Part shown: positions 15,237 to 43,400 of the stretch, in pieces
How the letters are laid out: every line of letters starts with the position of its first letter
Numbering within the stretch: position 1 is the first letter of the stretch
Source: Calliopsis andreniformis
Lineage: Eukaryota > Arthropoda > Insecta > Hymenoptera > Andrenidae
Direction of reading: 5' to 3'
Assembly (NCBI RefSeq): GCF_051401765.1
Contig: NC_135071.1
Span: 11,944,961-12,008,960, forward strand
Length of the DNA: 64,000 bases
The notes under the pieces: model-generated
Told to the model about the DNA's origin: nothing
Seen by the model: the letters and a program-made list of their open reading frames with translations, nothing else
Database searches by the model: none
Program-made: the position numbers and the translations under genes

Positions 15237-18200
15237 ATGACACGAGAGAAGGAATTGAAGGAGGTAGTATGCGCGAATGTGAAGGTAGTAAATGGCAAGA
15301 ACCATGATGATGGTGATTTGTTGGAGACGAAAGTGTACAAGAGGAGATGGCTGATGCTGGGATTATTCACTCTGTACTCAGGACTAAGCAATTTTCAATG
15401 GTTGCAATACTCTTCAATCGCCAACATCGTCTCAAGGTATTTCTGTTTTTTTGTTTTTCTTTATTTTGATAGTGTTTTGTTGATATGTGATCTGTTATTG
15501 TATTTTGAATAGGATCGTGTGGGGCCTAGTTAAATTGGGAACTTTAAGTACTATTATTATGTGTACAGACTATTTCCAGAAAGGAATTAAAAGCTTGATC
15601 TATTGAAGATGCGAAATTGGATAGAAGTTACATAGTAGTATTTATCATCAAAATCCCTTATCATTCATTAGCACCCGACTGATTAGATAAGGTGGAAATT
15701 CGACTGCACGCGTCGATTTGAAAATTTATCAACAAGATTACTATTGATACGAATTTAAAAATCGGTGTTTATCATTTTTATTGAAAACAAGCAGATAGCG
15801 ATGAAAATTGTAATTACATAGATTGCACAATGTATAGTTAGACCCGCTGAATGGAATTCATTGAACTTAATGAAGGTATTATTCAGGTACTATGGTGTCT
15901 CTTTATTGGCTGTTGACTGGACAGCGATGGCGTTCATGGGTTATTACACAATTTTCATCTTCCCTGCAACGTACATAGTAAACCGATGGGGACTCAGGTG
16001 GAGCAACATTTTGGGGTGCGCCATTTGTTGCCTCGGTTCCTGGATAAAAGTGCTGTCTGTCAGTCCTGACAGGTTTTACATCACCTTCATTGGTCAATCC
16101 CTTGTGGCTTCTATACAGGTTAGAACCAGGCGCACTTAAATGTTAAATTAAAATATTAAATTACCCTCGCCTGTGGGCTTAACAGAAAGTTAAATAAATT
16201 AGAACTGCGGGGTAAATAGAAATCAGTAATAAAATAAAAAAAATTCTGCAATAGTTAGATTTCCAGTAAGTTAATTGCAATTACTAGACTATAGAATTTT
16301 ATGCAATTTTATATTTTTATAAGCACAGTTAAACGGATGGAATCTTAATAAAAATTTGCTTCAGCTTTCAAGTATTACAATTTTCACTGTATTTTTCATA
16401 TTTTATAAAATCGAATATTATAAAATATTATAAAAATCGTCAGTCTAGTAATTACTTTAATTGATCACTTCTAAATTTCAATTTAATTAAAAAAGTATTT
16501 CGGTACTCGACAGTAATAGGGACAATGTACTGCAATTTTTGAAAAATATCTTTGCAGTAATTTTAATAGTAAAATTCACCCTTCGCTTCGTAGTGATCGT
16601 GGACATGCATAAGAAAGAAAGCATTTTCAATCCATTTCAGTAGAAAGGAAAATATTCATTCAAGTAGTATCACACCAGTTATGTCAGACAATTCCAGTTC
16701 TAAGTAGCGCAAGCCAACATTAACTGCACTATAAATCACCATGATATCTAGCACCGCAGTTTACTTAAAAAAACAAGCCTGTTATCAATTCGCTATGCCA
16801 ATTAGTCTTCATGAATTGTACGCGTCAAAGTTTTCAATGAAAACATTGGAGATAGCGGTCCATAGTATTAGTAATTGAATATCGGTCACTGTTTTACATG
16901 GAAACACTAGAATCGTCGGGATAGATCGAAAGGAAAAAGAGTCATGCAAGTTCGCAAGTATGATAGGAACGAGGTTCTGAGAATATGTCATAAATTATGG
17001 CTAATACAAGGCATTACGAGACTAGTCAGACTTTTATAGACCCAAAGCTTAAATTCGAAGCGAATTATTGAAGCGGGCGTCTTGCAGGGAGATTTATGCG
17101 CGCACGTTTACTGAGCGCATCTTCTGGCTTTGTGAAATCTCTATGATTTCTGGCTAAAGAACTCTCATGCTACTTGAAATAATCGACAGGCTTCGTATTT
17201 GGAGCACGAGAGATCTCGAAGTTGATTCTTAAAAGTGAATAGGGTATTAGGAACGAAGGAGGAAATATTTACTTATTTATTTATTCACGGGGTAGATCCT
17301 TCAATATAAAGCAATAGATGCATAATAAATAATTACATATGAGCCCTTAGTCATAAGTCAAAGTGATTAACTCCACTTTTTGAATTTTGTCAAATTTTAG
17401 TGTCAAAGCACGTGATTGATACTTACTCTTTAGATTTAAGATAAATGCAAATATTTTTGTTTTAGGAGTTAATCTATTTGACTAATGAGCTGTGCGTGCA
17501 TAGGCTAGAAAGGTAGAAAGATTCATTTAAAAAAGATTAAAGTATTGCATGACTGTTGAAGCATAATCTTAAACAGAAGATGAAAAACGCAAACGTTATT
17601 AACTAATTTAGATATGTGTTCGATACTGTTTGCCATTCTGTGTGCAATGAACTTTTAAATGAAATAACTTATAATGACGAATGTTTCTGACAGATGTAGA
17701 GAAGTTGAGAAAGCTCGATAAAATATGAGGAAAATAACCTAGGATGTCTTTCTCTATAAATAAAATGTCCAACAGTTTTCGTCTTTTTCCTAAGATTGAT
17801 AAATTAATCTGGGATAAAATAATATCATAGTTATGACAAGGCATAGATAATGAGTTGCCTAACTGGTAAGCTACAAGACGTGGGAGACGAGATAATACTT
17901 AAAATAACATGACTAAATTATTGAACGATACTCTGAACGATACTCTATTTTGGTGCTCTGTTCATTTTGGAAAAAAAACTTTTAAATACTTGAAACATAA
18001 TAGTGCAATAATGATCGCTAAATGTGAAAACGAAAGACAGTGTTATCTATAATCTACGTACAGCACAAATTTTCTTCACCGACTAAAATAACGTGACTCA
18101 GAGTATAACTAAAGATAGATTGTTTCTCTCATGAATGAATATGGCAATACCTTGACATTTACTTAGATTAAGAGAGAGTTTATTACAAATGCAGCAATCT

Positions 18201-20900
18201 TAAAGTCGCAAAAGATACTTTTATGGAGCACACTCTCTTGATTATCAATTATGTGGAAAATTTGTAGGTCATCAGTGTGCAATGAAACTTTGAAAAACAA
18301 AAGGACATTATTTATAACCACATTAAAAAGCAATGAACTTAAGTAAGATAAGAAACCATCTGAAACTACTTGTTCACTTTACGCTAACAATAACTGTTTC
18401 ATTTCTAATGTATCTATTTGCTTTAGAAATGGAGAACAAGAAAGATATTCATGTTTATAGGGTTGTTCTGTAGAATATCTATTAAAGAAATTGAAAGCTA
18501 GTATTATTTGCAAATTAATTAGTCGAAGAGGAAATATTTCCAGAATGATAAGCACATGTGACAGTAATACTTCATTATCGTATCAGACCATAGTTCTGAC
18601 TGTGCCTGGACGTCTAACGGCGCAATGGTTCCACGCCAAGGAAATATCCACAGCCACGTCATTAATCTTTTGCGGTAATCAATTGGGAATAGCATTGAGT
18701 TTCTTGCTCACGCCGATAATCGTTAAAAACCACGAGAACCTGGAGGACATAGGTGCTGCCATGTCGTCCCTTCTCTGGACTGTCGCCATCATCGTCTCGA
18801 TTACGTTTTTACTAATCATAATATGTAAGTCTACCTTAATGGGCTACAATAAGGGTCGGCAAACCAGAACCTGCCATTTATTTTTTCCTGTCCATAAGTT
18901 GAAAATAGCTTTGCACTCTTCAAATATTAGATATTAAAAAAAAGCATTTTATTCATTTCATTAGTAAAAAGGTACATATTACAAATAGTTTCACTTATGA
19001 AACATTATTTAATTTCATGAATAATGGATTTGTAGAAACGTTTTTCGTTTCATAAACGTAATATCTTTATCACAGTTTTTGGTTCGCAAGAATTAAATAT
19101 ATCTAATATTTGTCTCTTTAGAAGAAAGGTTTGTCGACCTCTGAAACAGAATAACGTATCGCAATTTAATGCACTACGTATAGCATATCACAACTTATGC
19201 AATCGCTCTTGTGCAAATCTCATACTGGATTTTCGCGTAATTATTGCCATGAAATGAAATTTCAGAATTCTCCTTCAATTTTACAAGAAACTGTTTCAAA
19301 TAAAATCTTAACTATTTTTAATTCTGCATAGCTCTCATAATTTAGATTCTTTTTTATCTACACTTTTTCGGAAATACAAGCACTGAATTTTATTTTTAAA
19401 TATGTTGTAAAAACACTTAAGTAGGGTATAAAAATCAATACAACTTGCGCAGTGATCAAACTCACAAAACTATCCAGAATGCAAAATAATCTCGTCTCTG
19501 ACTTGTCTCTGGTCTCGAGTCGTGATTCTATATCGAGAAAATACATAACAATTATTTTAAATAATTATTTTATCGCTAAACATCGCTGCATTTTATACAG
19601 TGTTCGAAGACGACCCCAAAGTACCACCAAGTACTGCTCGAGCACTGCAAAAGTTGAATCAACTGGAGGGGGAAGAGAACTTCGTGGAACCTATTAAAAG
19701 ACTATTAAAAAATAAACAATATTTATTATTATGTAATACGTATGGCTTGAACGTTGGTGTACTGAATGCAGTGGGAACGTTACTGAACCAGATATACCTT
19801 AGACACTTTGAGGTGAGCTAAAGAGAAACTGGCCCAAGAATTCTTTCAATATTTAAAAATGTTAAAGAATACTTGAGTTACCTTCGAACAAGTGTGAGGA
19901 CTGTTCGTGTGAGTTATAAGGGAAGCTAATTGTTTAATATTATATGTTTTCCAGAATGGTGAGGAAGACGCGGGTAGAATTGGTTTGGCCATGATTATTA
20001 CTGGAATGATAGGCTCTTTCTGTTTTGGAGTCATTCTTGATAAAACGCACAAATACAAGTAAGGGAATTTCTCAAGTGTTGTGAATCTTTTTTACTTTCT
20101 TTTACACTTCTTCAACTTTCGATATTTGCACAATAATCTTTCCAATTTTTCTTGTCTTCCACTTTCGTCTTTATTCTTCTACTATGATATTTCTTCTGTT
20201 TTACTTCAGTTTCTTCCATTCTCTTCACTTCAGCAACGTTGAATCTAATCTCAAAATTAGAATTCTCTTTACTATTTACACTCCACTGACGTATTTCTTC
20301 TTCTGATTGTATAATAAAATTGAATTTACGTATTTCCAGGGAAACGACAGTGATTGTATATTTCCTTTCGTTATGCGGGCAAATTCTCTTTGCTACGTTC
20401 ACTTGCCTCGAGATAAAGTGGATGATCTACCTGAGCGCTACTTTTCTAGGGTACTACTTTCATTCTCTTAGTTTGATCTATTTTAGAATTGATTCCTAGA
20501 ATTTTCAAGAATTTAGTAATATTAAGGAGACTTGAAAATTTATCCCCTCTTTCTCATCTAGAATATTTTCCACAGGTATTTCATGACTGGTTACGTAGCA
20601 TTGGGATACGAGATGTGCGCGGAATACACGTATCCAGAATCAGAAGGAATAGCGGCGGGAATTTTAAACGTAACAAATAACATTTACGGGATGTTGCTCG
20701 TCTTAATATTTGGCAGATTGTTTGAAGTCTATGGTGATATTCCTGTGCACGTGGGATCTTGTTTGGTGCTTTTTGTTGGATTTATCATGACAGCCCTGAC
20801 GAAAGACGTGCAAAGACGTCAGGCTGCTAAGAAAGGAGCTCAGTACCATGAAATCAATCAAACCGAAAAGAGCGAGAGCAATGGACTTGAGAATAAATGA
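15237..20900 (+). CDS. FLVCR: FLVCR-family major-facilitator transporter (choline/haem type), complete, 7 exons
   Basis: Predicted exons are 15237-15436, 15887-16118, 18587-18824, 19601-19812, 19955-20058, 20340-20450 and 20576-20900. All have GT-AG introns with matching phases and join to 1422 nt, or 473 aa, within the usual range of a 12-TM major-facilitator protein. A charged N-terminal tail of about 40 residues precedes TM1 (LMLGLFTLYSGLSNFQW). Exon 3 holds the family-typical segment VPGRLTAQWFHAKEISTATS followed by GNQLGIALSFLL. Exon 4 carries the central cytoplasmic loop with FEDDPKVPPS. Exon 7 has YPESEGIAAGILN and a hydrophilic C-tail. FLVCR proteins are plasma- or organelle-membrane transporters; vertebrate members move choline/ethanolamine and have been linked to haem. 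The substrate here is inferred from family only. The start was chosen because it gives a normal tail length and is the first ATG in the frame of exon 1. Confidence 0.92.
16119..18586 (+). other. Intron 2 of the FLVCR-type gene (2.47 kb)
   Basis: AT-rich, with no nested coding frame I would support. Positions 17345-17500 resemble 23630-23790, suggesting an old dispersed repeat. Confidence 0.75.
17345..17500. repeat. Old dispersed repeat, copy 1
   Basis: Shares an ordered series of blocks with 23630-23790, including aaagtgattaa, aaagcac followed by ttgat, and gttaatc/gctaatc near the end. Identity is roughly two thirds by eye. Both copies are in the same orientation in noncoding DNA, which suggests an ancient interspersed element. 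Confidence 0.4.
18825..19600 (+). other. Intron 3 of the FLVCR-type gene
   Basis: Bounded by a gtaagt donor and a tttatacag acceptor. Nothing else was recognised inside it. Confidence 0.75.
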
Positions 20901-28605: not shown

Positions 28606-29602
28606 AGATGCAAGTGGCGATGAATCAAAATTAGTTTAAAACTTTCAATAATTTGAAATGGAGTCTTCGTGCATCTCGTTTCTATTAAAGTGGTTACTGT
28701 ATAAATAAGAATTTTAGTGGCGTTTTAATGAATGGAATGATGGTAGATTTTGTTGAGTTATCCATAGCGTCTTCGTTAAGGTTCTATTTTCGAAATATCT
28801 TTCAATTGGCACTGTAAATAGTATGCATATCTTAAAATATTATTTTGAATGTCGCTTCCTGGTAACGGTGAAGTTGTTCCTACTTATCTGAGATTATTTT
28901 GAATCTGTTAGTTTAATGCACGTGAAATATTGTACTACGGAATGTGAAAATTGTAAAGATAATAGTATATTCATAAACATATATTTTATACCCTTTTGTA
29001 CGTCTTGGAGGCGGAAAACTTTTGTGGATATTTGTCGTGTTGGAACTGTTAATATTTTAATGTTAAAATAAATGAATCAGACAATAGCGTACCATAAATG
29101 CGTAATAAATAGTCTAGAATAAACTATTGTCTTCGTTATAGTATGTGCATCGAATTTTAATAAAAGTGAAGTACAATAGAAAAATTATTTTTTCTTTTCC
29201 ATAAAGTAATTTGATATTCGTCTCTCAAAACTTGGAAATATTTGAAAATAAAGTACTTCTTTTACTAGATACTAAAGTGTTCCATGTCTAGAGAAATTTC
29301 GAAACCATATTTTACCATTTACTGTAATGTATCGAACAATTTTATTAATGCCCGTCACCGAAATGAACCATATTGTAAAAAATAAATCGTTAAGACAGAA
29401 AACAAATTTAAGAGTAAAAGATTCTTTAATATTATCTCATGTAGCTCAATGTTTCAGCTTTCCCAAAAATTCAGTTTAATTTAAATTTCAATATAAACTG
29501 AATTTATGCATATTATCTTATTTTTGTTATTGGCATGTTCATAAGCAAAGTGTATGCATTGGTAATAAAGTCTATCTCATTTAAATAATCTCATTTAAAT
29601 AT
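28606..29602. other. AT-rich spacer before the ribozyme array
   Basis: No coding or structured feature was recognised in about 1 kb. Confidence 0.5.
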
Positions 29603-29782
29603 TGCCACTCTGGTATAAATTTTTTGCAACAACATACTTTTTGGGAATAGCACTTTCGTTTATTACTTAAAATTATAGGGATGACTAAGAAGCATCGTAT
29701 AGTGGATCACCTTATATATCGGGTGGTATGGTAGGAATATTTTCTCGTTTGTAGGTACTACCAGCGTGAAACAATACGTTTC
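29603..29782. repeat. Direct repeat flanking the ribozyme array, left copy
   Basis: About 180 bp that realign with 39012-39192 in the same orientation at roughly three-quarters identity by eye. Shared blocks include cactctggta, attatagggat and a nearly perfect ggtaggaatattttctcgtt. A minus-strand AATAAA (plus TTTATT, 29659-29664) inside this copy could serve as the poly(A) signal of a transcript crossing the array right to left. Confidence 0.6.
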
Positions 29783-29787
29783 CTGTG

Positions 29788-29851
29788 CCGACTACACCGA
29801 TAGTCGGTGGTTTTACCACAAGGAAGTTACTACGAGAGCAGGTACACAGAG
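29788..29851 (-). pseudogene. Degenerate HDV-like ribozyme relic
   Basis: Positions 29808-29830 (ggttttaccacaaggaagtt) align with the P1'/P3/L3 part of the intact copies (ggtctcaccacgaggaggtt). The bases after it align with the sequence that follows each type B copy. A 7-bp hairpin CCGACTA/TAGTCGG sits where P4 is expected, but P1 and P2 can no longer pair properly. It looks like an inactivated eleventh copy marking the old left edge of the array. Confidence 0.45.
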
Positions 29852-30114: not shown

Positions 30115-30181
30115 CACAGCCATTAGCACGGACAGAGCCGCCCCAGGTCTCACCACGAGGAGGTTGCTGTGCTGGAGACCC
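30115..30181 (-). ncRNA. HDV-like ribozyme, type B, copy 1
   Basis: Minus-strand reading: P1 GGGTCTC pairs with GAGACCT (a G-U wobble at the cleavage pair, as in the classical ribozyme). P2 pairs over 6 bp because its outer base is altered. P3 ACC/GGT closes L3 TCCTCGT, and J4/2 is GCTAATG. Predicted cleavage is immediately 5' of position 30181 on the minus strand. Confidence 0.8.
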
Positions 30182-30235
30182 ACAGGGAGATAGATGGAGC
30201 CAAAGTTCCATCGATCTCCCTTTACAAAAATCTTA

Positions 30236-30745
30236 AACTAACAAGCCAAAGACATGAATGGAAGCCAAGTTCCATGCATGCCTTTAGCTTCGACCTTAGA
30301 GTAGAAAATTGTCGAGTTATCATTAGGAAGGGTTTGGTTAAATTAGACTCTACCGCTAATGCAACCGTGAAATAGACGAGCGATGGTGTGAGCTCTACCA
30401 CCTTGAAGGCCGGTAGGTCGGAGAGGCGCACGGCACTACATGATTCAGTCAGTTGTCCATTGCTCCCTGCTGCCACACAGGAGCTACCGAAGTAGACCTG
30501 ATTCCGACAGGCTGGTAAAGAGAATGCGCAAAAGGCGGAAACGTGTAGTTTCCACAGTCGAGTGTGTCTTTCCACACACCCTACTGTGTCCGTCGCGTCA
30601 CTCCTAGTACAGACCTCCAAGGGGAGAACACACTCCACCGACCGACGATTCCACGGTTGGTCACATGCTTCTACCAAGAGAAGCAGAGGTGACTTCCTCA
30701 CCAAAGATGAGGAACAAATTTCAAGAAAAGAAGTTAAGAAATGAC
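30236..30745. repeat. Alpha module, copy 1 (structured)
   Basis: About 510 bp, distantly related to the beta modules. Potential hairpins include ATGGAA/TTCCAT (near 30259-30277), GTGTG/CACAC (near 30565), TGCTTCT/AGAAGCA (near 30668) and TTCCTCA/TGAGGAA (near 30695-30716). A 193-codon minus-strand frame spans this copy but is interrupted in copy 2, arguing against protein coding. Confidence 0.55.
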
Positions 30746-30775
30746 AACTCGACAATTGCACAGTGATTTTAAGGT

Positions 30776-31200
30776 AGAAAGGCAAAGACATGGATGGAAG
30801 CAAGTTCCATCCACGCCTTTGCCTTGGATCTTAAAGTAAAGAGGTGCCAAGTACTCATTGAGAAGGGATTGGGAATGTTTAGAGTCTACCGCGTAAGGCA
30901 ACCATGAAATGGACAATCGGTGGTGCGAGTCCTTCCACCTTGAAGACGGGTACTAGGAGAAGGCGACTGGCACCTCACAGCCCAGACAGTTGCCTGACTG
31001 AACTGTGGGGTTTCCACCTTCAAGTGTGTCATACCACACACCATCGAGTGTCCACATCGTCTCTCGCTAGTACAAACCCCCAAGGGAAGAAGAACAAGCT
31101 CCATCGACTGCCAATTCCACAGCTGCTAGTTGCTTCTACTAAGAGAAGCAGAGATCACCTCCTCACAGAAGGTGAGGAGCAAATGATCGAGCAAAGATGA
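30776..31200. repeat. Beta module, copy 1 (structured)
   Basis: About 425 bp. Hairpins match those of alpha but with different stem bases: GGATGGAA/TTCCATCC, GGTGG/CCACC, a CAGACAG/CTGACTG stem with TTGC loop and one A-A mismatch, GTGTG/CACAC, TGCTTCT/AGAAGCA and CTCCTCAC/GTGAGGAG. Confidence 0.55.
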
Positions 31201-31397
31201 CTAAGATGTGACTACTCGGCAGTGTTACAAAGATTTTACAATACAATCTTAAAAGTAGGGTCTTAAAAATATTCTAAGCCATTGCGACTAATATACTAGA
31301 TGCGGTGAATCCCTCGGCGGATGCGACGTCTTCGTTCTGCAATCTTCAAGTTAATATGAATGATTGGGGGAGCCTCCCCGAAAATACCCCAACGATG

Positions 31398-31465
31398 GCA
31401 CAGCCATTGGCCCGGACAGAACCGGCCCGGGTCTCACCACGAGGAGGTTGCTGTGCTAGAGACCC
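31398..31465 (-). ncRNA. HDV-like ribozyme, type A, copy 1
   Basis: P1 GGGTCTC/GAGACCC (7 bp), 2-nt J1/2, P2 GCACAGC/GCTGTGC (7 bp), P3 ACC/GGT with L3 TCCTCGT, GG available for P1.1, P4 CCGG-TTCTGT-CCGG, and J4/2 GCCAATG. Predicted cleavage is 5' of 31465 on the minus strand. Confidence 0.82.
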
Positions 31466-31842
31466 ATATGGTAATCACAGATATAAGAAAGGATTGATAG
31501 AACACTCCGTACTCCGAATTAAGACAGAACATATTTGGACAGAAAATAGAATGGAACGACATTAGCATTTGATTGAATACTTCTTCGATGTTCATCTGAA
31601 CCCTGAAATGTTGAAAATTAGAAATGCAAATGAAGACTCTCGTGGTATACGATTTCTTCGTTCGATCAGTGATCTCTGTGTAAATGAAATAGGAATGATA
31701 ATTCTAACCAGTGATAAAATTTACAAGAGAATAGAGAGACATGCAGCAAAGAGAGAATGGACGAATAACAGAAGCATATCAATGAACGTAGAAAGTGAGA
31801 GGAACCACCCCTACCTAACTACCCTTATATCGAGTACAAAAT

Positions 31843-31910
31843 GCACAGCCATTAGCACGGACAGAGCCGCCCCAGGTCTCACCACGAGGAGGTTGCTGTG
31901 CTGGAGACCC
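31843..31910 (-). ncRNA. HDV-like ribozyme, type B, copy 2
   Basis: Complete 7-bp P2 and P1 with the G-U closing pair, P3/L3 as in all copies, and J4/2 GCTAATG. Predicted cleavage is 5' of 31910. Confidence 0.82.
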
Positions 31911-31964
31911 ACAGGGAAATAGATGGAAACAAAGTTCCATCGATCTCCCTTTACAAAATTCTTA

Positions 31965-32474
31965 AATTAACAAGCCAAAGACATGCATGGAAGCCAAGTT
32001 CCATGTATGCCTTTAACTTCGACCTTAGAGTAGGAAATTGTCGAGTTATCATTAGGAAGGGGTTGGTTAAGTTAGACTCTACCGCTAATGCAACCGTGAA
32101 ATAGACGAGCGGCAGGGTGAGCTCTACCGCCTTGAAGGCCGGTAGGTCGGAGAGGCGCACGGCACTACATGATTCAGTCAATTGTCCATTGCTCCCTGCT
32201 GCCACATAGGAGCTACCGAAGTAGACCTAATTCCGACAGGCTGGTAAAGAGAATGTGCAAAAGGCGGAAACGTGTAGTTTCCACAGTCGAGTGTGTCTTT
32301 CCACACACCCTACTGTGTCCGTCGCGTCACTCCTAGTACAGACCCCCAAGAGGAGAACACACTCCACCGACCGACGATTCCACGGTTGGTCACATGCTTC
32401 TACCAAGAGAAGCAGAGGTGACTTCCTCACCAAAGATGAGGAACAAATTTCAAGAAAAGAAGTTAAGAAATGAC
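31965..32474. repeat. Alpha module, copy 2
   Basis: Close copy of the module at 30236-30745. In the hairpin near 32108-32133 the third stem pair is C-G where alpha copy 1 and the beta copies have T-A, a compensatory change. Confidence 0.55.
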
Positions 32475-32507
32475 AACTCGACAATTGTACAGTGATCTTA
32501 AGCTAGA

Positions 32508-32937
32508 GAGGCAAAGACATGGATGGAAGCCAAGTTCCATACATGCCTTTGCCCTGGATCTTAAAGTAGAGAAGTGCCAAGTAATCATAGAGTGGAGATT
32601 GGGAATATTTAGAGTCTACCGCGTAAGGCAACCATGAAATAGACAATCGGTGGTGCGAGTCCTTCCACCTTGAAGACGGGTACTAGGAGAAGGCGACTGG
32701 CACCTCACAGCCCAGACAGTTGCCTGACTGAACTGTGGGGTTTCCACCTTCAAGTGTGTCATACCACACATCATCGAGTGTCCACATCGTCTCTCGCTAG
32801 TACAAACCCCCAAGGGAAGAAGAACAAGCTCCATCGACCACCGATTCCACGGCTGCGAGTTGCTTCTACTAAGAGAAGCAGAGATCACCTCCTCACAGAA
32901 GGTGAGGAGCAAATGATCGAGCAAGGATAACTAAGAT
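32508..32937. repeat. Beta module, copy 2
   Basis: Same hairpin set as beta copy 1 with a few substitutions, followed after about 100 bp by a C motif at 33041. Confidence 0.55.
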
Positions 32938-33170
32938 GTGACTACTCGGCAGTGTTACAAACATTTTACAATACAATCTTAAAAGTAGGGGCTTACAAAT
33001 AGTTTCAGCGATTCAGACTTATATACTAAAAGTGGTGAATCCCTCGGCGGATGCGACGTCTTCGTTCTTCAATCTTCAAATTGAGGATAAAAAGAGAACT
33101 GGCGAAGAAAGAGTATGAAGAGTAATATACGAATAGTCGGGGAAGCCTCCCCAAGAATATCCCAACGATG

Positions 33171-33238
33171 GCACAGCCATTGGCCCGGACAGAACCGGCC
33201 CGGGTCTCACCACGAGGAGGTTGCTGTGCTGGAGACCC
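33171..33238 (-). ncRNA. HDV-like ribozyme, type A, copy 2
   Basis: All helices of the type A consensus are intact. A GGGGA-AGCC-TCCCC hairpin lies about 20 bp away on the left side. Predicted cleavage is 5' of 33238. Confidence 0.82.
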
Positions 33239-33616
33239 ATATAGGAATCACAGAAATAAGAAAGGATTGACAGAACAATCCGTACTCTGAATTACGACAG
33301 AACATATTTAGACAAAGAACAGAATGGAACGACGTTGGCATTTGATTGAATTCTTCTTCGATGTTCACCTAAACCCTGAAATGTTAAAAGTTAGAAATGC
33401 AAATAAAATCCCTCGGGGGATATGATGTCTTCGTTCGATGAATGATCTTCATGTGAATGAAATAGAAATGATAATTATAACCAACGATGTAATTAACAAG
33501 AGAATATAGAGACGTGCAGCAAAAAGAGAAAGGATGAATAATAGAAGCATATCAATGATCGCAGAAACACAAGGGGAACCACCCCTACCTAACTACCCTT
33601 ATATCTAATACAAGAT

Positions 33617-33684
33617 GCACAGCCATTAGCACGGACAGAGCCGCCCCAGGTCTCACCACGAGGAGGTTGCTGTGCAGGAGACCC
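33617..33684 (-). ncRNA. HDV-like ribozyme, type B, copy 3
   Basis: J1/2 is CT here instead of CA, and all paired regions are intact. Predicted cleavage is 5' of 33684. Confidence 0.82.
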
Positions 33685-34408
33685 ACAGGGAGATAGACGA
33701 AATCAAAGTTCCATCGATCTCCCTTTACAAAAATCTTAAACTAACAAACCAAAGGCATAAATGGAAGTCAAGTTCCATCCACACCTTCAGCTTGGTTCTT
33801 ATAGTAGAGATGTGCCAAGTAATCATTGAGTTGAGTTTGGGAATATTTAGAATCTACCGCGTAAGGCAACCATGAAATAGACAAGCGGTGGTGCGAGTCC
33901 TTCCACCTTGAAGACGGGTACTAGGAGAAGGCGACTGGCACCTCACAGCCCAATCAGTTGCCTGATTGAACTGTGGGGTTTCCACCTGCAAGTGTGTCAT
34001 ACCACACACCATTCGGTGTCCACATCGTCTCTCGCTAGTACAAACCCCCAAGGGAAGAAGAACAAGCTCCATCGACCACCGATTCCACGGCTGCGAGTTG
34101 CTTCTACTAAGAGAAGCAGAGATCACCTCCTCACAGAAGGTGAGGAGCAAATGATCGAGCAAGGATAACTAAGATGTGACTACTCGGCAGTGTTACAAAC
34201 ATTTTACAATACAATCTTAAAAGTAGGGGCTTACAAATAGTTTCAGCGATTCAGACTTATATACTAAAAGTGGTGAATCCCTCGGCGGATGCGACGTCTT
34301 CGTTCTTCAATCTTCAAATTGAGGATAAAAAGAGAACTGGCGAAGAAAGAGTATGAAGAGTAATATACGAATAGTCGGGGAAGCCTCCCCAAGAATATCC
34401 CAACGATG

Positions 34409-34476
34409 GCACAGCCATTGGCCCGGACAGAACCGGCCCGGGTCTCACCACGAGGAGGTTGCTGTGCTGGAGACCC
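34409..34476 (-). ncRNA. HDV-like ribozyme, type A, copy 3
   Basis: Reference copy used for the fold: P1 7 bp, J1/2 CA, P2 7 bp, J2/3 A, P3 3 bp, L3 7 nt with two Cs for P1.1, P4 4 bp with TTCTGT loop, and J4/2 GCCAATG carrying the candidate catalytic C. Confidence 0.85.
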
Positions 34477-34854
34477 ATATAGGAATCACAGAAATAAGAA
34501 AGGATTGACAGAACAATCCGTACTCTGAATTACGACAGAACATATTTAGACAAAGAACAGAATGGAACGACGTTGGCATTTGATTGAATTCTTCTTCGAT
34601 GTTCACCTAAACCCTGAAATGTTAAAAGTTAGAAATGCAAATAAAATCCCTCGGGGGATATGATGTCTTCGTTCGATGAATGATCTTCATGTGAATGAAA
34701 TAGAAATGATAATTATAACCAACGATGTAATTAACAAGAGAATATAGAGACGTGCAGCAAAAAGAGAAAGGATGAATAATAGAAGCATATCAATGATCGC
34801 AGAAACACAAGGGGAACCACCCCTACCTAACTACCCTTATATCTAATACAAGAT

Positions 34855-34922
34855 GCACAGCCATTAGCACGGACAGAGCCGCCCCAGGTCTCACCACGAG
34901 GAGGTTGCTGTGCAGGAGACCC
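34855..34922 (-). ncRNA. HDV-like ribozyme, type B, copy 4
   Basis: Identical to type B copy 3. Predicted cleavage is 5' of 34922. Confidence 0.82.
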
Positions 34923-35646
34923 ACAGGGAGATAGACGAAATCAAAGTTCCATCGATCTCCCTTTACAAAAATCTTAAACTAACAAACCAAAGGCATAAAT
35001 GGAAGTCAAGTTCCATCCACACCTTCAGCTTGGTTCTTATAGTAGAGATGTGCCAAGTAATCATTGAGTTGAGTTTGGGAATATTTAGAATCTACCGCGT
35101 AAGGCAACCATGAAATAGACAAGCGGTGGTGCGAGTCCTTCCACCTTGAAGACGGGTACTAGGAGAAGGCGACTGGCACCTCACAGCCCAATCAGTTGCC
35201 TGATTGAACTGTGGGGTTTCCACCTGCAAGTGTGTCATACCACACACCATTCGGTGTCCACATCGTCTCTCGCTAGTACAAACCCCCAAGGGAAGAAGAA
35301 CAAGCTCCATCGACCACCGATTCCACGGCTGCGAGTTGCTTCTACTAAGAGAAGCAGAGATCACCTCCTCACAGAAGGTGAGGAGCAAATGATCGAGCAA
35401 GGATAACTAAGATGTGACTACTCGGCAGTGTTACAAACATTTTACAATACAATCTTAAAAGTAGGGGCTTACAAATAGTTTCAGCGATTCAGACTTATAT
35501 ACTAAAAGTGGTGAATCCCTCGGCGGATGCGACGTCTTCGTTCTTCAATCTTCAAATTGAGGATAAAAAGAGAACTGGCGAATCAAGAGTATGAAGAGTA
35601 ATATACGAATAGTCGGGGAAGCCTCCCCAAGAATACCCCAACGATG

Positions 35647-35714
35647 GCACAGCCATTGGCCCGGACAGAACCGGCCCGGGTCTCACCACGAGGAGGTTGC
35701 TGTGCTGGAGACCC
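35647..35714 (-). ncRNA. HDV-like ribozyme, type A, copy 4
   Basis: Type A consensus intact. Predicted cleavage is 5' of 35714. Confidence 0.82.
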
Positions 35715-36092
35715 ATATAGGAATCACAGAAATAAGAAAGGATTGACAGAACAATCCGTACTCTGAATTACGACAGAACATATTTAGACAAAGAACAGAA
35801 TGGAACGACGTTGGCATTTGATTGAATTCTTCTTCGATGTTCACCTAAACCCTGAAATGTTAAAAGTTAGAAATGCAAATAAAATCCCTCGGGGGATATG
35901 ATGTCTTCGTTCGATGAATGATCTTCATGTGAATGAAATAGAAATGATAATTATAACCAACGATGTAATTAACAAGAGAATATAGAGACGTGCAGCAAAA
36001 AGAGAAAGGATGAATAATAGAAGCATATCAATGATCGCAGAAACACAAGGGGAACCACCCCTACCTAACTACCCTTATATCTAATACAAGAT

Positions 36093-36160
36093 GCACAGCC
36101 ATTAGCACGGACAGAGCCGCCCCAGGTCTCACCACGAGGAGGTTGCTGTGCAGGAGACCC
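36093..36160 (-). ncRNA. HDV-like ribozyme, type B, copy 5
   Basis: Type B consensus intact. It begins the last, more diverged unit, whose beta module ends near 36640 and is followed by three C motifs (36752, 36832, 36932). Confidence 0.82.
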
Positions 36161-37038
36161 ACAGGGAGATAGACGAAATCAAAGTTCCATCGATCTCCCT
36201 TTACAAAAATCTTAAACTAACAAACCAAAGGCATAAATGGAAGTCAAGTTCCATCCACACCTTCAGCTTGGTTCTTATAGTAGAGATGTGCCAAGTAATC
36301 ATTGAGTTGAGTTTGGGAATATTTAGAATCTACCGCGTAAGGCAACCATGAAATAGACAAGCGGTGGTGCGAGTCCTTCCACCTTGAAGACGGGTACTAG
36401 GAGAAGGCGACTGGCACCTCACAGCCCAATCAGTTGCCTGATTGAACTGTGGGGTTTCCACCTGCAAGTGTGTCATACCACACACCATTCGGTGTCCACA
36501 TCGTCTCTCGCTAGTACAAACCCCCAAGGGAAGAAGAACAAGCTCCATCGACCGCCGATTCCACAGTTGGACATTTGCTTCTACTAAGAGAAGCAGATGA
36601 CCTCCTCACAGAAGGTGAGGAGGAAGTAACCGAGCAAAGATAGCTAAGAAGTGACAACTTGGCAGTATTACAGTGACTTTACAATGGAAACTTACAAGTA
36701 GGGTCTTAAAAATATTCTAAGTGATTGCGACTTATATATTAGAAGCGGTGAATCCCTCGGTGGATGCGACGTCTTCCTTCATACGAACAATAAAGAGTAA
36801 AGACAGAACTTTACGAACCAAAGGTGGTGAATCCCTCGGCGGATGAGATGTCTTCTGTAGTCTTAAAGATACGATCTTAAAGATAGCCTTAAAGTCTAAT
36901 CGATTGAAGCTTATATACTAGAACTGATATATCCCTCGGCGGATGCGACGTCTTCATTCTTCAATCTTCAGGTTGAAAATAAAGAGAGAAGCATGTATCA
37001 ATAACTGGGGGAGCCTCCCCAAGAATACCCCAACGTTG

Positions 37039-37106
37039 GCACAGCCATTGGCCCGGACAGAACCGGCCCGGGTCTCACCACGGGGAGGTTGCTGTGCTAG
37101 AGACCC
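37039..37106 (-). ncRNA. HDV-like ribozyme, type A, copy 5
   Basis: Same helices, but L3 is TCCCCGT instead of TCCTCGT. This is the first ribozyme met by transcription entering from the right. Predicted cleavage is 5' of 37106. Confidence 0.8.
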
Positions 37107-37286
37107 ATCTAGTAACCACAGAAATGAGAAATGAGTAACAGAACAATCCATACTCTGAATCAAGAGAGAACATATTTAAACACGAAACAGAATTGAACAA
37201 CGTTGGCATTTGATTGAATTCTTCTTTTAGTACTTATATTCGATGTTCATCTATATCTTGAAGTATTAAAAATTAGAAATCGAATT

Positions 37287-37420
37287 GAAATCCCTCGGGG
37301 GATACGATATCTGAAATCCCTCGGGGGATATGATATATCTGAAATCCCTCGGGGGATATGATGTCTGAAATCCCTCGGGGGATATGATGTCTGAAATCCC
37401 TCGGGGGATACGATGTCTTC
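37287..37420. repeat. Five tandem C' motifs (26-28 bp each)
   Basis: Each copy begins gaaatccctcgggggat. The core ATCCC-TCGG-GGGAT folds as a 5-bp hairpin with a 4-nt loop. Elsewhere in the array a single C' follows each A ribozyme; here it is amplified to five. Confidence 0.85.
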
Positions 37421-37925
37421 GTTCGATGAATGTTCTTCATGTGAATGAAACAGGAATGATAATTGTAACCAGCGATGAAATTCACAAGAGGATAGAAAGA
37501 CTTGCAGCAATGAAAGAAGGAACGAATAACAGAAGCATATTAATGATCGCAAAAACCAGAGCAAGGAATCAAGTGTAATATATAAATGATTGAAGGAGTC
37601 TCTTCTATCTTCTTTTACAAAAATGTTAAAGTCTAATCTTAACACTAGTAAACTAAAGTCATGAATAGAAAACAAGTGTAAGAATTCGAAATATTAATCG
37701 AATTCGTTTTTTAATATATTGATTCGATGGTTATTTAAACCATGTGTGGTTTTAAAATAATAGTTAAATATTGACGAAAATATTTGATTGATATTGATGA
37801 AAGTAGGGGGAAGTAGAAAAGAAGGGCATAGTACACGAAAATAAGAGAAGCAGAAAAAAGGGGGCAACATATGTGCAAAATAGGGCTAACAGAAAAATAA
37901 ATTCAAAATTTGTGCAAAAACTCAC

Positions 37926-38090
37926 CGGTTGTTCAAGATGACCACTGGTCATCGGCCAGCTGACCACTGGTCTGGGGTGTCCAGGGGCCCAGGGGTCCAG
38001 GGTGGTCCGAGGTCCAAGCAGGTCCAAGACCCAGGAGTCCCTCCACGATCCCCAGAGAGGTCCTCACCCGCCGGAGGACCGGCAACAAGT
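37926..38090 (-). ncRNA. First exon of a minus-strand transcript reading into the array
   Basis: A GC-rich block runs from a predicted initiator at 38090 to a strong donor (CCG then GTGAGT, intron from 37925). The only ATG in it (37952-37950) opens a short frame, MTSGHLEQP, that is still open in phase 0 at the donor, so a coding product with an unidentified second exon is possible. If so, the array lies in an intron, as the known mammalian CPEB3 ribozyme does. No partner acceptor could be fixed. Confidence 0.5.
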
Positions 38091-38149
38091 GAGGCACTCG
38101 TTCTCCTGCAGGGGTATTTATACTGTCTCGAGAAAGATGAGAAACCAAT
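38088..38149 (-). promoter_or_regulatory. Minus-strand core promoter: CCAAT, TATA, initiator
   Basis: On the minus strand TATAAATA (38122-38115) is followed 32 bp later by an initiator-like TCACTT with A at 38090. An ATTGG (CCAAT box, 38149-38145) lies about 57 bp upstream of that start. The arrangement directs transcription leftwards into the ribozyme array, the same strand on which all ten ribozymes fold. Confidence 0.55.
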
Positions 38150-38199
38150 CAGAGAAGTTCTTCGGTTGATTAGAATTTCGAGACCGATCTAACGAACAA

Positions 38200-39011
38200 T
38201 ATTTGGCAAGAAATTGATATTTTTCATAAAATACTCACCCGAGCAACAATTTCTGGCACACATGTTGTTAATAACAATCACACACAAACAACAAATGTGG
38301 AAATTATTAACTTTTCGTATATTATTTATCGTTTGATTAATCTCGCAGCTCTTGAAAACTTCTTAATATTTCTTTAACCAACAATTATAAATGTTAATAA
38401 CTTGCATCAGTCACTGCTTGCGACTGTTATTAACCCTCGGACGACAAATGCTGGGTCAAAAATGACCCTGAGACCGCTGGCTCTGTATATGAATATAAAA
38501 CAATCTACTGCCCGAGGGATAACAATCTTCTGGTCAGTCGCTTCGGAGTTTCCAGCGGCTGTGAATCGTCCTGGTGATCCTCTGGAAGAACTTCCTAGAT
38601 TATCATGGACTACCTTGGGTTACTCTCAACCACTCTGTCCACTAACAGCTTGACCCTTGATCAGATGTTTTTGGCTTACCAGTTTAGATTTCAGACTTCA
38701 AGATTTTAGCGAATGAAGATCGATGGGCCCTCAATTTCGTCTATTTCCCCATGAGCCTCCGTGATTCGTGTACTATCTACCTTTAAAGTTTTCAATCATT
38801 TTTCTTTACCACTTTTACTAAGCCATTCGTATTCTTTGCTGGAATTTCGTATTTCTTGGGTGTACCAAGTAATCCAAAGCATATCTTGATTAATATAACA
38901 TAGATACAACTATTTCGGAATCAGTGAATGTTTCTTAGTACTTTTATATAAAATTCCGTATTCCACTGAATTTAGCCATAAAAAAATAAGCATCTTATTT
39001 AGAATAAATAT
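38200..39011. other. Spacer upstream of the array promoter
   Basis: AT-rich apart from a moderately GC-rich block at 38430-38660. It contains a candidate TTAA-type element listed separately and no supported gene. Confidence 0.5.
38432..38525. mobile_element. Possible small TTAA-type element with internal hairpin
   Basis: Starts TTAACCCTCGG and ends CCGAGGGATAA, a 7-bp inverted repeat. Inside is GGGTCAAAAATGACCC, a perfect 6-bp hairpin of a kind often seen near piggyBac-related ends. Only one side has a full TTAA, so this is tentative. Confidence 0.3.
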
Positions 39012-39192
39012 GATCACTCTGGTACATATTTTTTGCAGCAACATATTTTTTGTAAATACTATTTTCGCTTATTATTGAAATTATAGGGATAAATAAGCAG
39101 CATAGTTTAATGGGACACTTTATATATTGGGTGGTGTGGTAGGAATATTTTCTCGTTTGCCTGCACTATCAGCGTGAAAAGAATACATTTCC
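39012..39192. repeat. Direct repeat flanking the ribozyme array, right copy
   Basis: Partner of 29603-29782, in the same orientation. Both copies are followed on the right by unrelated sequence. The pair suggests that the whole locus was once tandemly duplicated and that the unit right of this copy has decayed. Confidence 0.6.
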
Positions 39193-39439
39193 TACATCCA
39201 CCGGTCAAAAATCGCAGAGGACGCTCGAAAACCAGTGGTTTCTCGAGCCGTCGGTATTTCAGAACGTGAGACACGGAAGTCCATTGAATGTCCCAGTCTA
39301 TCCTGTATACTCACATGTGGTTTCCTACATCCATCGCCCGAAAATCGCAGAGGACTCTCGAAAACCAGTGGTTTTTAAGCCGTCGGTATTTCAGAATATG
39401 AGACACGATGTCTGGTCTGTCCTGTATACCAGTCTGTGA
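39188..39439. repeat. Two-copy tandem duplication (about 133 and 119 bp)
   Basis: Both copies start tttcctacatcca. They share atcgcagagga, a quasi-palindrome centred on ACCAGTGGT (39231-39239 and 39364-39372), gccgtcggtatttcagaa, and cctgtata near the end. Copy 1 has an extended near-palindrome of about 24 bp (CTCGA, AAACCA, G, TGGTTT, C, TCGAG). Confidence 0.65.
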
Positions 39440-40467: not shown

Positions 40468-43400
40468 TTAGGCCGCCACTTCACTTGATGAACACTTGTC
40501 GAACATCGCATCGAGAACTTGTGTGAACTTCAAATGCCTCTCTTCAGGAGCCACCGTGGCTCCCCGACTTCCCCATAGGAATTTTATGTGGAATTCTGTT
40601 CGAAACGCGTCTGAGAGCAATTCGTCGCTCCTAGAACCCTCTAAGACTATCTCAGCGTTTCTACGGAACAGTGGTAGATTCTCCGCCATCTTTCGAGCTG
40701 ATTCCAAATGAGACCAGACAATCGAGAGACCACAGTCTGGAGCAGAGTTCTCCCATGGTGAGAGGATTGCTGCTGCCAAACCGGATGGAGTCACTGTTCC
40801 TATAAAATAATGCATATAATTAAAATTTTAGGACTTTAAGATATGAAGATTCAGAAAACTTATGGAATAACTTCTTGTTATTTCTTAGGAAATTTCAAGA
40901 AGCAACTTAGTTTAAAGTATCTAGAATTCTGGAATTAAAAGTTTTAAGAATTTAGTTGTAGACAATTTTAAGAGACTAAGGATTCACTAAATCAGAAACG
41001 TAAGGATTCAAGAGTTAAGCACTCAAGAATTCAAACATACTTCCAAAACACTTGAATATTTTAGATGTTTACCAATTAGATAGTTCAAAAATTTTTAATT
41101 AAATTTGAAATTTAAATTTGATAGTTCTATGCTACTCAACAATTAAATCTATTATCCCACAATCAACCTACCTAAAACATCCTCAGGCCCGCGCTCCCCT
41201 AACAATGCAATAGGCAGCAAATGAGGAAGGGTAGTATTGGGCGCCTGCGGATTCGTGCACTCGTTCATCGCTCTAAGTGTAGGCCTAAGTTTGGCCTCGA
41301 AACTGAACGCTTCATCAGTATGCTTCTGCCTCAACAGGTGCCACGTGTTCGCTAGTTTCTGTATCTGCGGCAAGCACAAACCCAGCATCACACCGCAAAA
41401 CCCATACAAATTCCCTAGGGCCGTCTTAGTATCAATTGCCACTTTGATCCACTTGCTAATCGTAGCAGCCCTTTCGATCGCTGTAGCTCCAGCCAGCACA
41501 GTCACCGCCACCAGCAGTTTCAAACACTCGGACCTTTCTATCAAATCCATCCTAGCTTGTCTGCCATGTGGCAGAGTAGCCAATTCAATACCACTGAGCC
41601 CATTCCTGTTCCCAGGGCCAGGCTGCAGCGCCAGCTCCAGGTCAATCTTCGTCAAATGCGAAGCTAAGACCCTTGGCGCGGAATCGAGCAGCATTCCTGA
41701 GACTCCTCTTAAAGCAGTTGGGTCCAGGGGCCTGTGGTCCCCAGCTGGCAGCAGTAGAGTCGAGAATCCTTCAATATCCAGCGCCGTGGTGATTTCTAGA
41801 GATGGTGCAGCGACCACCAGCTGCTCCTCTGCCGACAGTTCATACTCGTTCCCGTTGTTCCCATTGGTACCATCATTACTAATCGTATAGTGACTTCTGA
41901 TGACGACACCTTTAATGGGAACCGAAGAGGATGGGTTGCTAGTACCGCCAGAGTTATTCGTTTCGAATTCACTATCCCCAGACCCATTCCCACTGTCGCT
42001 ACCCGAAGCCTGGTAACCCTGATGATGATGATGGTGGTGGTGATGGTGATGGTGTGCGTGATGCTGATGATTTGGAACATAGGGTACCCTCGGTGGCTTG
42101 GGAGGTGCCGTGCCAAGGGAGTTCTGATGGTTCAAACTTGGAGATTGAAGTGGTTGCTGCTGCTGCTGCTGGAGAGCAGGGTCAGAGATCACCCTGGTGA
42201 TCTTCTGGCGACCCAGGGACAGAGAACACGAAGGTGGCTGGTTCTGGATGGGTGGTACCCTTGGCAGAGTGCTGGATTGAATTGGCACATGAGGCGCGGC
42301 CTGCTGGTTCGAAGTCTGGCGACTATCATGCTGATCCGAGGGATGGTGCTGAGCAGTCAGAGAGTGGCTGCGTTGTTGTTTCCGAGGTAGACGAGGCGGT
42401 GAACCGGTCGACAAGGAGGAGGAGGAGGGGCTGGAGCAGTGCTGGCTGTTCGTTGGTCCCGAAACACATGTCAGCGGCACGGATCTCGGTTTTGGCGTGA
42501 TTATGCGAGCTCCACTAGCCTGGCTTATCGGTCTGCCGCTGCCAACGTAGAAGGTTATCAAGTCGGCCACTGTGTCGAACGCCTCGTCCTCGAATTGGTA
42601 CTGCGCCCTCTCGTACACCGTTTCTGGCTGGATGACAACCTGTTGAGACATCTGTGAAGAGCATTGCCTTCGTGGATTGCTTTAGAGCTTCTGTGTAGAG
42701 AACTTACCCTGTTGATGACGAAGTGAAGCGGCTGTCCCTTCCATCTGACCGTGAGGACGTAGTTACCAGGCTGGGAGGCACAGTCACGGACCAGGAAGTC
42801 GCCATCGTTTGGAACTTCCGCCTCGGCACCCTTTCTGCCCCCTCGAAGAGTGTTGCCGTGGTACCAGGCATGCGATCTCAGATCACGAGGGTCCAGAAGT
42901 CGAAGTTCTCGCTCCAAGAGTTTGCGCGTCGACTCTTCCGGTGGCTCCTAAATTAGATGTCCGAGAAGGAGGATCTTAAATTAGGGATTTACGGCGTGGT
43001 GAATGATCAGACTGTCAAGCAAGGCTTTGAGACTGAGTTTAAATGAAGTTTCAAATTAAATGTACAGTATGTTGCATCTAAATTGATACAACGCCAAATA
43101 AATGATAATTCAATTATTTAGATCACTCTTCTAAACTCATCATTTTCTGAAGTGTATAATAAAGTCATATTTCAATAATAATTAATACTGATTACAAAGC
43201 AATTCGGTACTTTAACTTGATAAATACACAAATTGAAAATTCCTTTTCTCTTCTTCTTTTATACTAAACCTGTTTTTCTTTTCATTAGAGTTAAATTACA
43301 TAAAAGACAAATTTTGCAGCCGCTTCGTGTACGTTTCCCAGTAAGACAGACACGCCAAGCAAATGAAGAAGTGCCTCGACCCTGCGAGCTCACGAAATTG

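Follow-up and report, generated by a model that had tools for sequence, protein, structure and literature searches.

Hepatitis delta virus-like ribozymes in alternating pairs around structured-RNA modules in a dispersed noncoding repeat family of Calliopsis andreniformis

The window, which designates here the whole stretch of DNA that was analysed, consists of 64,000 nucleotides (nt) of Calliopsis andreniformis (NCBI RefSeq assembly GCF_051401765.1, contig NC_135071.1, positions 11,944,961 to 12,008,960 of the forward strand). On its minus strand, from about 39438 to 29596, lies a copy of a noncoding repeat family that is dispersed in the genome; the parts of this copy are listed in Table 1. 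An earlier note on this DNA had described ten hepatitis delta virus (HDV)-like self-cleaving ribozymes arranged in tandem on that strand; the ten copies are present at the places noted, with the segment order and the junction lengths that had been described, and they belong to two types, B and A (five of each), which alternate along the array.

Table 1. Features of the family member in the window, in transcription order (ribozymes assigned by structure; G1, first nucleotide of P1)
Feature	Coordinates	Strand	Remarks
5' leader, ribozyme-free	37107..39438	-	
Outer 5' terminal motif CACAGACTGGTATACAGGACAGACC	39414..39438	-	inner copy 39293-39319
TATA-like box CCAATATATAA in leader	39120..39130	-	
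HDV-like ribozyme, type B, first of array	37041..37106	-	G1 at 37106; Rfam open-threshold match, descriptor
Cassette 1: B + rod alpha	36161..37106	-	946 nt
HDV-like ribozyme, type A	36095..36160	-	G1 at 36160; Rfam open-threshold match, descriptor
HDV-like ribozyme, type B	35649..35714	-	G1 at 35714; Rfam open-threshold match, descriptor
Cassette 2: B + rod alpha	34923..35714	-	792 nt
HDV-like ribozyme, type A	34857..34922	-	G1 at 34922; Rfam open-threshold match, descriptor
HDV-like ribozyme, type B	34411..34476	-	G1 at 34476; Rfam open-threshold match, descriptor
Cassette 3: B + rod alpha	33685..34476	-	792 nt
HDV-like ribozyme, type A	33619..33684	-	G1 at 33684; Rfam open-threshold match, descriptor
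HDV-like ribozyme, type B	33173..33238	-	G1 at 33238; Rfam open-threshold match, descriptor
Cassette 4: B + rod alpha + rod beta	31911..33238	-	1328 nt
HDV-like ribozyme, type A	31845..31910	-	G1 at 31910; Rfam open-threshold match, descriptor
A-to-B spacer: A ribozyme + about 380 nt	31466..31910	-	no excess structure (z -0.2)
Equivalent A-to-B spacers	33239-33684, 34477-34922, 35715-36160	-	
HDV-like ribozyme, type B	31400..31465	-	G1 at 31465; Rfam open-threshold match, descriptor
Cassette 5: B + rod alpha + rod beta	30182..31465	-	1284 nt; ends 5' of the predicted type-A cleavage site
Rod alpha, query copy	30766..31250	-	other copies start (transcription order) 36693, 35456, 34218, 32980
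Rod beta, query copy	30228..30771	-	second copy starts 32500
Stable hairpin just 5' of predicted type-A cleavage site	30184..30221	-	further copies ending 31950, 33724, 34962, 36200
HDV-like ribozyme, type A, last intact-looking array site	30116..30181	-	G1 at 30181; Rfam open-threshold match, descriptor
Degenerate 11th ribozyme-like copy, in 3' tail	29771-29848	-	missed by the earlier note
Second, partial leader fragment at 3' end	29596..29784	-	TATA-like box 29712-29722

Anatomy and conservation of the ribozyme copies

Each of the ten copies measures 66 nt to the end of P2' and reads, on the minus strand, approximately GGGUCUC-CA-GCACAGC-A-ACC-UCCUCGU-GGU-GAGACC[C/U]-GG-P4-J4/2-GCUGUGC, and the nested double-pseudoknot order (P1, P2, P3, P3', P1', P4, P2') is found in all of them (10/10). 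Type B is characterized by P1' GAGACCC, P4 CCGG/CCGG and J4/2 CCAATG, and type A by P1' GAGACCT, P4 GCGG/CCGT and J4/2 CTAATG. A descriptor composed after the copies had been seen (P1 of 7 base pairs (bp), P2 of 7 bp, P3 of 3 bp, L3 of 7-8 nt, P1.1 GG, a P4 hairpin and J4/2 CNRA) picked out the ten G1 positions of the minus strand and no others there (10/10); it gave no match on the plus strand of the window and none on either strand of 60 dinucleotide-shuffled windows, and a chance origin of the motifs was rejected on this last result. The plus-strand reading, for which neither a descriptor match nor an HDV model match was obtained, was rejected as well, in agreement with the earlier note.

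The search with covariance models that the note had called for was carried out with 4227 Rfam families on 8.2 kb at E<=10. The HDV_ribozyme model RF00094 matched all ten copies on the minus strand, over the full model length, at 27.5-30.5 bits (gathering score 50) with E-values of 0.23-0.9, and RF02682, the F. prausnitzii HDV model, matched the same ten copies at 21-28.1 bits (gathering score 44) with E-values of 0.048-2.1; all these E-values refer to the 4227 families and would be, by our arithmetic, about 4000 times smaller for a single family named beforehand. Because both models match every copy, albeit below threshold, the complete lack of matches that the note had named as a refutation was not observed. 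The sub-threshold matches of the same search to microRNA (miRNA), His_leader and other models were treated as chance.

The copies used for comparison come from the rest of the assembly. A 24-nt core, CAGCAACCTCCTCGTGGTGAGACC, occurs exactly 321 times in its 1.019 Gb (164 forward and 157 reverse; 0 for the reversed control), and the first 100 of these places, grouped by eye, make up 34 loci within each of which the sites are one-stranded. Thirty stretches of 3 kb were fetched, several of which share an array and one of which lies in the array of the window, and ten more matches were each taken in a 20-kb stretch, which gives with the window the 11 loci discussed below; being good matches to one B ribozyme, the fetched loci are a non-random sample in which the presence of ribozymes is given by construction. 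The fetched stretches yielded 146 ribozyme-like instances, overlaps between stretches included, which represent 53 distinct 78-nt strings, and 51 distinct copies were aligned after removal of two degenerate strings.

In these 51 copies, 99.1% of the 1122 pair cells are paired, as against 29-41% when the partners are slid. Changes on both sides of a pair are seen at four of the seven P2 pairs (16 cells), the outermost G-C being replaced by U-A or A-U and others changing from A-U to G-C, G-C to A-U and C-G to U-A; shuffled alignments contain on average 1.4 such double-change pairs, and four were reached in none of 500. The outer P4 pair is C-G, G-U, U-A or A-U, with a few misfits or gaps. P1, P3 and P1.1 hardly vary, and covariation there neither supports nor contradicts the pairing. 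The catalytic C of J4/2 is invariant (51/51), the first A of the same junction is kept in 50 copies and the second in 51, and six of the seven L3 positions are identical in at least 49 of the 51 copies, the fourth position in 44. A third type, C, found at some array ends, has a longer GCAA joining stretch before P4 and different P2 letters with the pairing kept. Mean pairwise identity amounts to 0.975 at 48 A sites and 0.984 at 43 B sites, figures which are helped by the way the sites were found, and to 0.49-0.90 in the flanking blocks; when the fetch anchors and the 20-nt probe core are left out, the values are 0.964 (31 A sites) and 0.970 (20 B sites), with flanks at 0.47-0.92.

Several observations weigh on the other side. 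No Rfam family reaches its gathering score in the window; the number of further pair types (11) shows no excess over shuffles (10.6); the relatedness of the sequences inflates the covariation counts; some copies are damaged, such as L044:3765-3842 in P1' and P1.1; and J1/2 measures only 2 nt in most copies. With regard to this last point, PMC4908430 reports for the mosquito ribozyme drz-Agam-2-1 that a 1-nt spacer allowed little cleavage and that rates rose with 3 and 7 nt. The gathering score, the one sequence test that the motifs failed, is a curation threshold that lies outside the structural definition of HDV-like ribozymes. Taken together, the segment order, the chance control, the sub-threshold model matches, the covariation in P2 and in the outer P4 pair, the invariant J4/2 C, the near-invariant L3 and the conservation above the flanks support the reading of the window motifs as HDV-like ribozymes by structure, and from this structure we infer that they may be active.

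One contig of IMG/VR matched a 20-nt core pattern; since the 1.1 kb surrounding it has no Rfam match (E<=1), the match was taken as chance and a viral source was discarded.

Cassettes, spacers and the rod module

The ribozyme sites mostly alternate B, A, B, A, and the letters that precede them are mostly ...AUAU at B sites and ...CUGU at A sites. The site types were assigned manually. For one site of C10 that the typing script had called A, the J4/2 and the flank led to reassignment as B, and two type-C sites missing from the script's list, in C9b and C4, were included. In the 11 loci, the 31 intervals that run from a B site to the following A or C site measure 792-2666 nt and the 23 that run from A to B measure 225-601 nt. 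A module of about 500 nt, which we call the rod, is present in all 31 of the former (one copy in 5 intervals, two in 20, three in 5 and four in 1) and in none of the 23 A-to-B intervals, a laxer threshold included. Two further intervals carry modules and depart from this order, one in C9a that joins two A sites and one in C4 that leads from an A site to a C site; they count against a strict grammar. The hairpin that precedes the predicted type-A cleavage site exists in 30 distinct forms.

The modules succeed one another in the order alpha, often then beta, the two being about 65% alike. In one cassette of the window, the 1218-nt body has a folding energy of -486.9 kcal/mol, and the two halves of this body have z values of -6.2 and -9.8 on the ribozyme strand. 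The consensus fold of 117 distinct rod copies comprises 134 pairs with 97.8% of the cells paired; double changes affect 23 pairs and 438 cells, compared with 5-12 pairs and 14-61 cells when the partners are slid, although the structure was derived from the same alignment and many of these cells reflect one change through the differences between the alpha and beta groups. In rod alpha, diversity is 0.041 in paired columns and 0.119 in unpaired ones. The module was rejected as a protein-coding repeat: the rods have no codon periodicity and their longest open stretch varies from 59 to 116 amino acids (aa) in alpha and from 90 to 181 aa in beta.

A first strand count, 2008 G-U versus 87 A-C cells, was biased because the fold had been predicted with G-U allowed on that strand, and it was superseded by a comparison in which both strands were folded. 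This comparison gives a consensus energy of -232.9 on the ribozyme strand versus -197.7 on the opposite strand, 97.8% versus 95.8% of paired cells, a lower single-copy energy on the ribozyme strand in all 30 sampled rod copies and, in the set of 97 pairs common to the predictions of the two strands, 213 G-U versus 66 A-C cells. The opposite strand also folds well, with z values of -5.7 and -9.1 for the same body halves and 21 double-change pairs in its rod fold, which tempers the assignment of the strand. According to these predicted folds, the module is a structured RNA whose pairing is better on the ribozyme strand.

Tandem hairpin loci that make small interfering RNAs (siRNAs) exist in flies, and the rods, which are long imperfect hairpins with conserved pairing that is better on one strand, could likewise be precursors of small RNAs (endo-siRNA or miRNA-like) that the ribozymes merely trim. 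We consider this unlikely, given that the rods are branched and interrupted and that no miRNA family is found at the Rfam gathering score.

The 1238-bp units of the window between 32778 and 36162 are nearly identical: there are 0 mismatches between neighbouring stretches from 32778, 3 mismatches between 33593 and 34831, and the longest identical run, at the offset of the 32778 stretch, is 1567. Such units may result from recent amplification or from an assembly effect. Since neighbouring units are nearly identical, homogenisation or fresh duplication does happen, and one could suppose that the whole array is inert satellite-like DNA whose ribozymes have lost their function and owe their apparent conservation to recent amplification or to gene conversion. 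This supposition seems very improbable to us: identity is 96-98% among the ribozymes and drops to 47-92% in blocks close by, and homogenisation does not account for the compensatory substitutions seen in P2, in P4 and in the rods.

A small 26-bp hairpin motif (minus-strand AUCCC-CCGA-GGGAU) forms five tandem copies at 37286-37418 and also occurs singly elsewhere in the array.

Leader, termini and coding capacity

The leader (about 2 kb) is represented by 40 scored copies of 222 candidates, and of the 39 besides that of the window, 22 begin at query position 8-11, 14 at 19-25 and 3 elsewhere. The leader start lies near CACAGACGAGTATACAGGATAGACTGGACA, a 30-mer terminus with 89 matches at no more than 3 mismatches (control 0). 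The TATA-like box stands about 190 nt inside the window leader and at the same place in eight aligned leaders, degenerate in some of them. Module X, of which 40 copies were scored out of 101 candidates, is followed by the inverse of the leader start at 13 of 20 sampled X ends (at most 9 mismatches; 300 shuffles never went below 10), and the idea that X is an unrelated repeat was dropped on account of this inverted terminus at its ends. A 1.2-kb internally deleted copy, L074, has both ends, and both termini of two arrays were found in pairs of short fetched ends. Five of the 11 array loci contain a recognisable module X.

These observations may point to a unit that would spread with its inverted termini, and others speak against such a unit. 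Among the 11 20-kb loci, a clear inverted 3' end is seen only in C8, which has no 5' start; no clear target-site duplication appears in the element ends compared by eye; and no transposase turned up, no search for an autonomous relative having been made. As for the window copy, it carries the 5' motif twice (at 39438 and 39319), the 3' motif is absent, and its 3' end consists of the degenerate ribozyme and the second leader fragment.

In L074, and in L032 near the leader start of C10, the element ends directly abut pieces of another copy's rod. This arrangement suggests nested insertions, perhaps with a preference for that hairpin.

The elements at the 11 loci are overlapped by 22 stop-to-stop open reading frames (ORFs) of at least 130 aa, the longest of which (268 aa) is of low complexity; the two that belong to the window have no Pfam match, and no ORF of reverse-transcriptase size was seen in the 11 loci. 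The earlier note had spoken of an insect locus without a retroelement. This description is incomplete, the locus being one of many that belong to a dispersed family whose transposon-like inverted termini are complete in only part of the copies.

Two further explanations involve retroelements. The family could be what is left of a long interspersed nuclear element (LINE) or R2-like retrotransposon after amplification of its 5' HDV-like ribozyme, and it is there, according to PMC3774820 and PMC7761336, that cellular HDV-like ribozymes are best known. With no ORF longer than the low-complexity one and with ribozymes that are internal, repeated and situated downstream of a ribozyme-free leader, we find this origin scarcely credible. 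Alternatively, the array could be a retrozyme-like element, the HDV counterpart of the hammerhead retrozymes, in which the B-to-A RNA would be circularised after cleavage and spread by reverse transcription to give tandem genomic copies. Metazoan retrozymes are indeed described, in PMC7761336, as tandem ribozyme-bearing repeats that make highly structured RNAs, and the cassette bodies are strongly self-paired. A reverse-transcribed B-to-A circle would however lack the rod-free A-to-B spacer, which is kept in 23 of 23 cases; moreover, the first ribozyme of the dispersed unit is preceded by a leader that has a shared start and a TATA-like box, and the B-to-A intervals reach 0.8-2.7 kb versus 150-300 bp for animal retrozymes. 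All this makes a retrozyme-like element distinctly improbable.

Two further features of the window lie outside the element. A BCAR3/SH2D3C-like gene has exons at 40468-42947 on the minus strand, with SH2 and RasGEF and with a C-terminal exon that matches 3t6a and 3t6g. The 5' motif of the element is on the same strand about 1 kb beyond an exon of this gene, and read-through transcription into the element is therefore conceivable. At 15822-20900, on the plus strand, exon-like ORFs give weak matches to major-facilitator transporters below the Pfam cut-off.

A model of RNA release and its relation to known systems

The model we propose, and which we consider probable, is that pairs of ribozymes cut structured noncoding RNAs out of a polycistronic transcript. 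Transcription would start probably at the TATA-like box of the leader, or by read-through, and an HDV-like ribozyme would fold at every B and A site and cleave the transcript just 5' of its own G1, co-transcriptionally at each site. Each B-to-A piece would be released as an RNA of about 0.8-2.7 kb that begins with the folded B ribozyme, continues with one to four conserved rods and closes with a stable hairpin next to a 3' end bearing a 2',3'-cyclic phosphate; the A-to-B pieces would be spacers and would be discarded. The chemical steps of this scheme are taken from the known behaviour of HDV-like ribozymes, as given in PMC4908430 and PMC3774820. The sequences show the anatomy, covariation and conservation of the ribozymes, the grammar of the arrays, the pairing of the rods with its strand, and the dispersal of the family; transcription, cleavage, the stability of the RNAs and the spread of the whole as a unit with inverted termini are what we infer beyond this. 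The rods could act as a trans-acting or structural noncoding RNA, as a source of small RNAs or as a circular RNA.

A broader and more tentative proposal, to which we give somewhat less than an even chance, is that a DNA-transposon-like element has adopted pairs of HDV-type ribozymes as a means of processing, by which a promoter-driven polycistronic noncoding transcript would cut itself into uncapped and unpolyadenylated RNAs that have a ribozyme fold 5' and a hairpin 3' and whose rods would be maintained by selection, either for a cellular function or for the spread of the element itself; our confidence in it was lowered slightly because only one array locus among the 11 has a clear inverted 3' end. 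HDV-like ribozymes turn up throughout genomes, and few cellular roles outside retroelements are established for them. If the proposal is correct, the family would represent a mode of gene expression outside both retroelements and viruses, in which ribozyme pairs serve as an excision device for animal noncoding RNAs in an element without a visible reverse transcriptase. The family has hundreds of copies, and in the examined loci the sites stand at defined borders between rod-bearing and rod-free stretches, which predicts exact products; its many natural HDV-like variants also offer material for relating structure to function.

With the HDV ribozymes (RF00094) and HDV-like ribozymes, the copies share the order of the segments, the 7-bp P1 beginning with G (first pair G-U or G-C), the 3-bp P3, the L3 UCCUCGU, a P1.1 of two C-G pairs, P4, the J4/2 C-N-A-A and P2'; they differ in that the window copies stay below the Rfam gathering score, that P4 has only about 4 bp and that they stand in paired tandem arrays. 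PMC7761336, PMC3774820 and PMC4908430 place genomic HDV-like ribozymes mainly in R2 and other retrotransposons, in the mammalian CPEB3 gene and in virus-like RNAs, and name the hammerhead retrozymes as the animal elements with tandem ribozymes. The ribozymes of R2 and other LINEs, as presented in PMC3774820, are likewise genomic, HDV-like and acting on a co-transcript; they are located at the 5' end of a reverse-transcriptase element, whereas here several per copy are internal and no ORF of that size was seen. The metazoan retrozymes and the Penelope-like elements with hammerhead ribozymes, as described in PMC7761336, also combine tandem ribozyme repeats with highly structured RNA. In contrast, the ribozymes of the present family are of the HDV type (no hammerhead family matches the window at the Rfam gathering score), with two per unit, rods and rod-free spacers, a leader and inverted termini. 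The family is HDV-like by structure, and the features of R2/LINE elements and of hammerhead retrozymes that were tested are not those it displays.

The non-autonomous DNA transposons with terminal inverted repeats offer another comparison: inverted termini of about 30 bp in some copies, dispersal and an internally deleted form (L074) are common to both, while the arrays of ribozymes and structured RNA, and the absence of a clear 3' inverted end at most of the 11 array loci, set the family apart. It resembles a non-autonomous inverted-repeat element, whose transposition is putative. Searches of paper listings in an open-access library turned up no description of inverted-repeat DNA elements that carry HDV-like ribozymes, nor of paired arrays in which such ribozymes serve for excision; to that extent, what is unreported in the present analysis is the architecture itself, in which type-B and type-A sites alternate around rod-bearing intervals.

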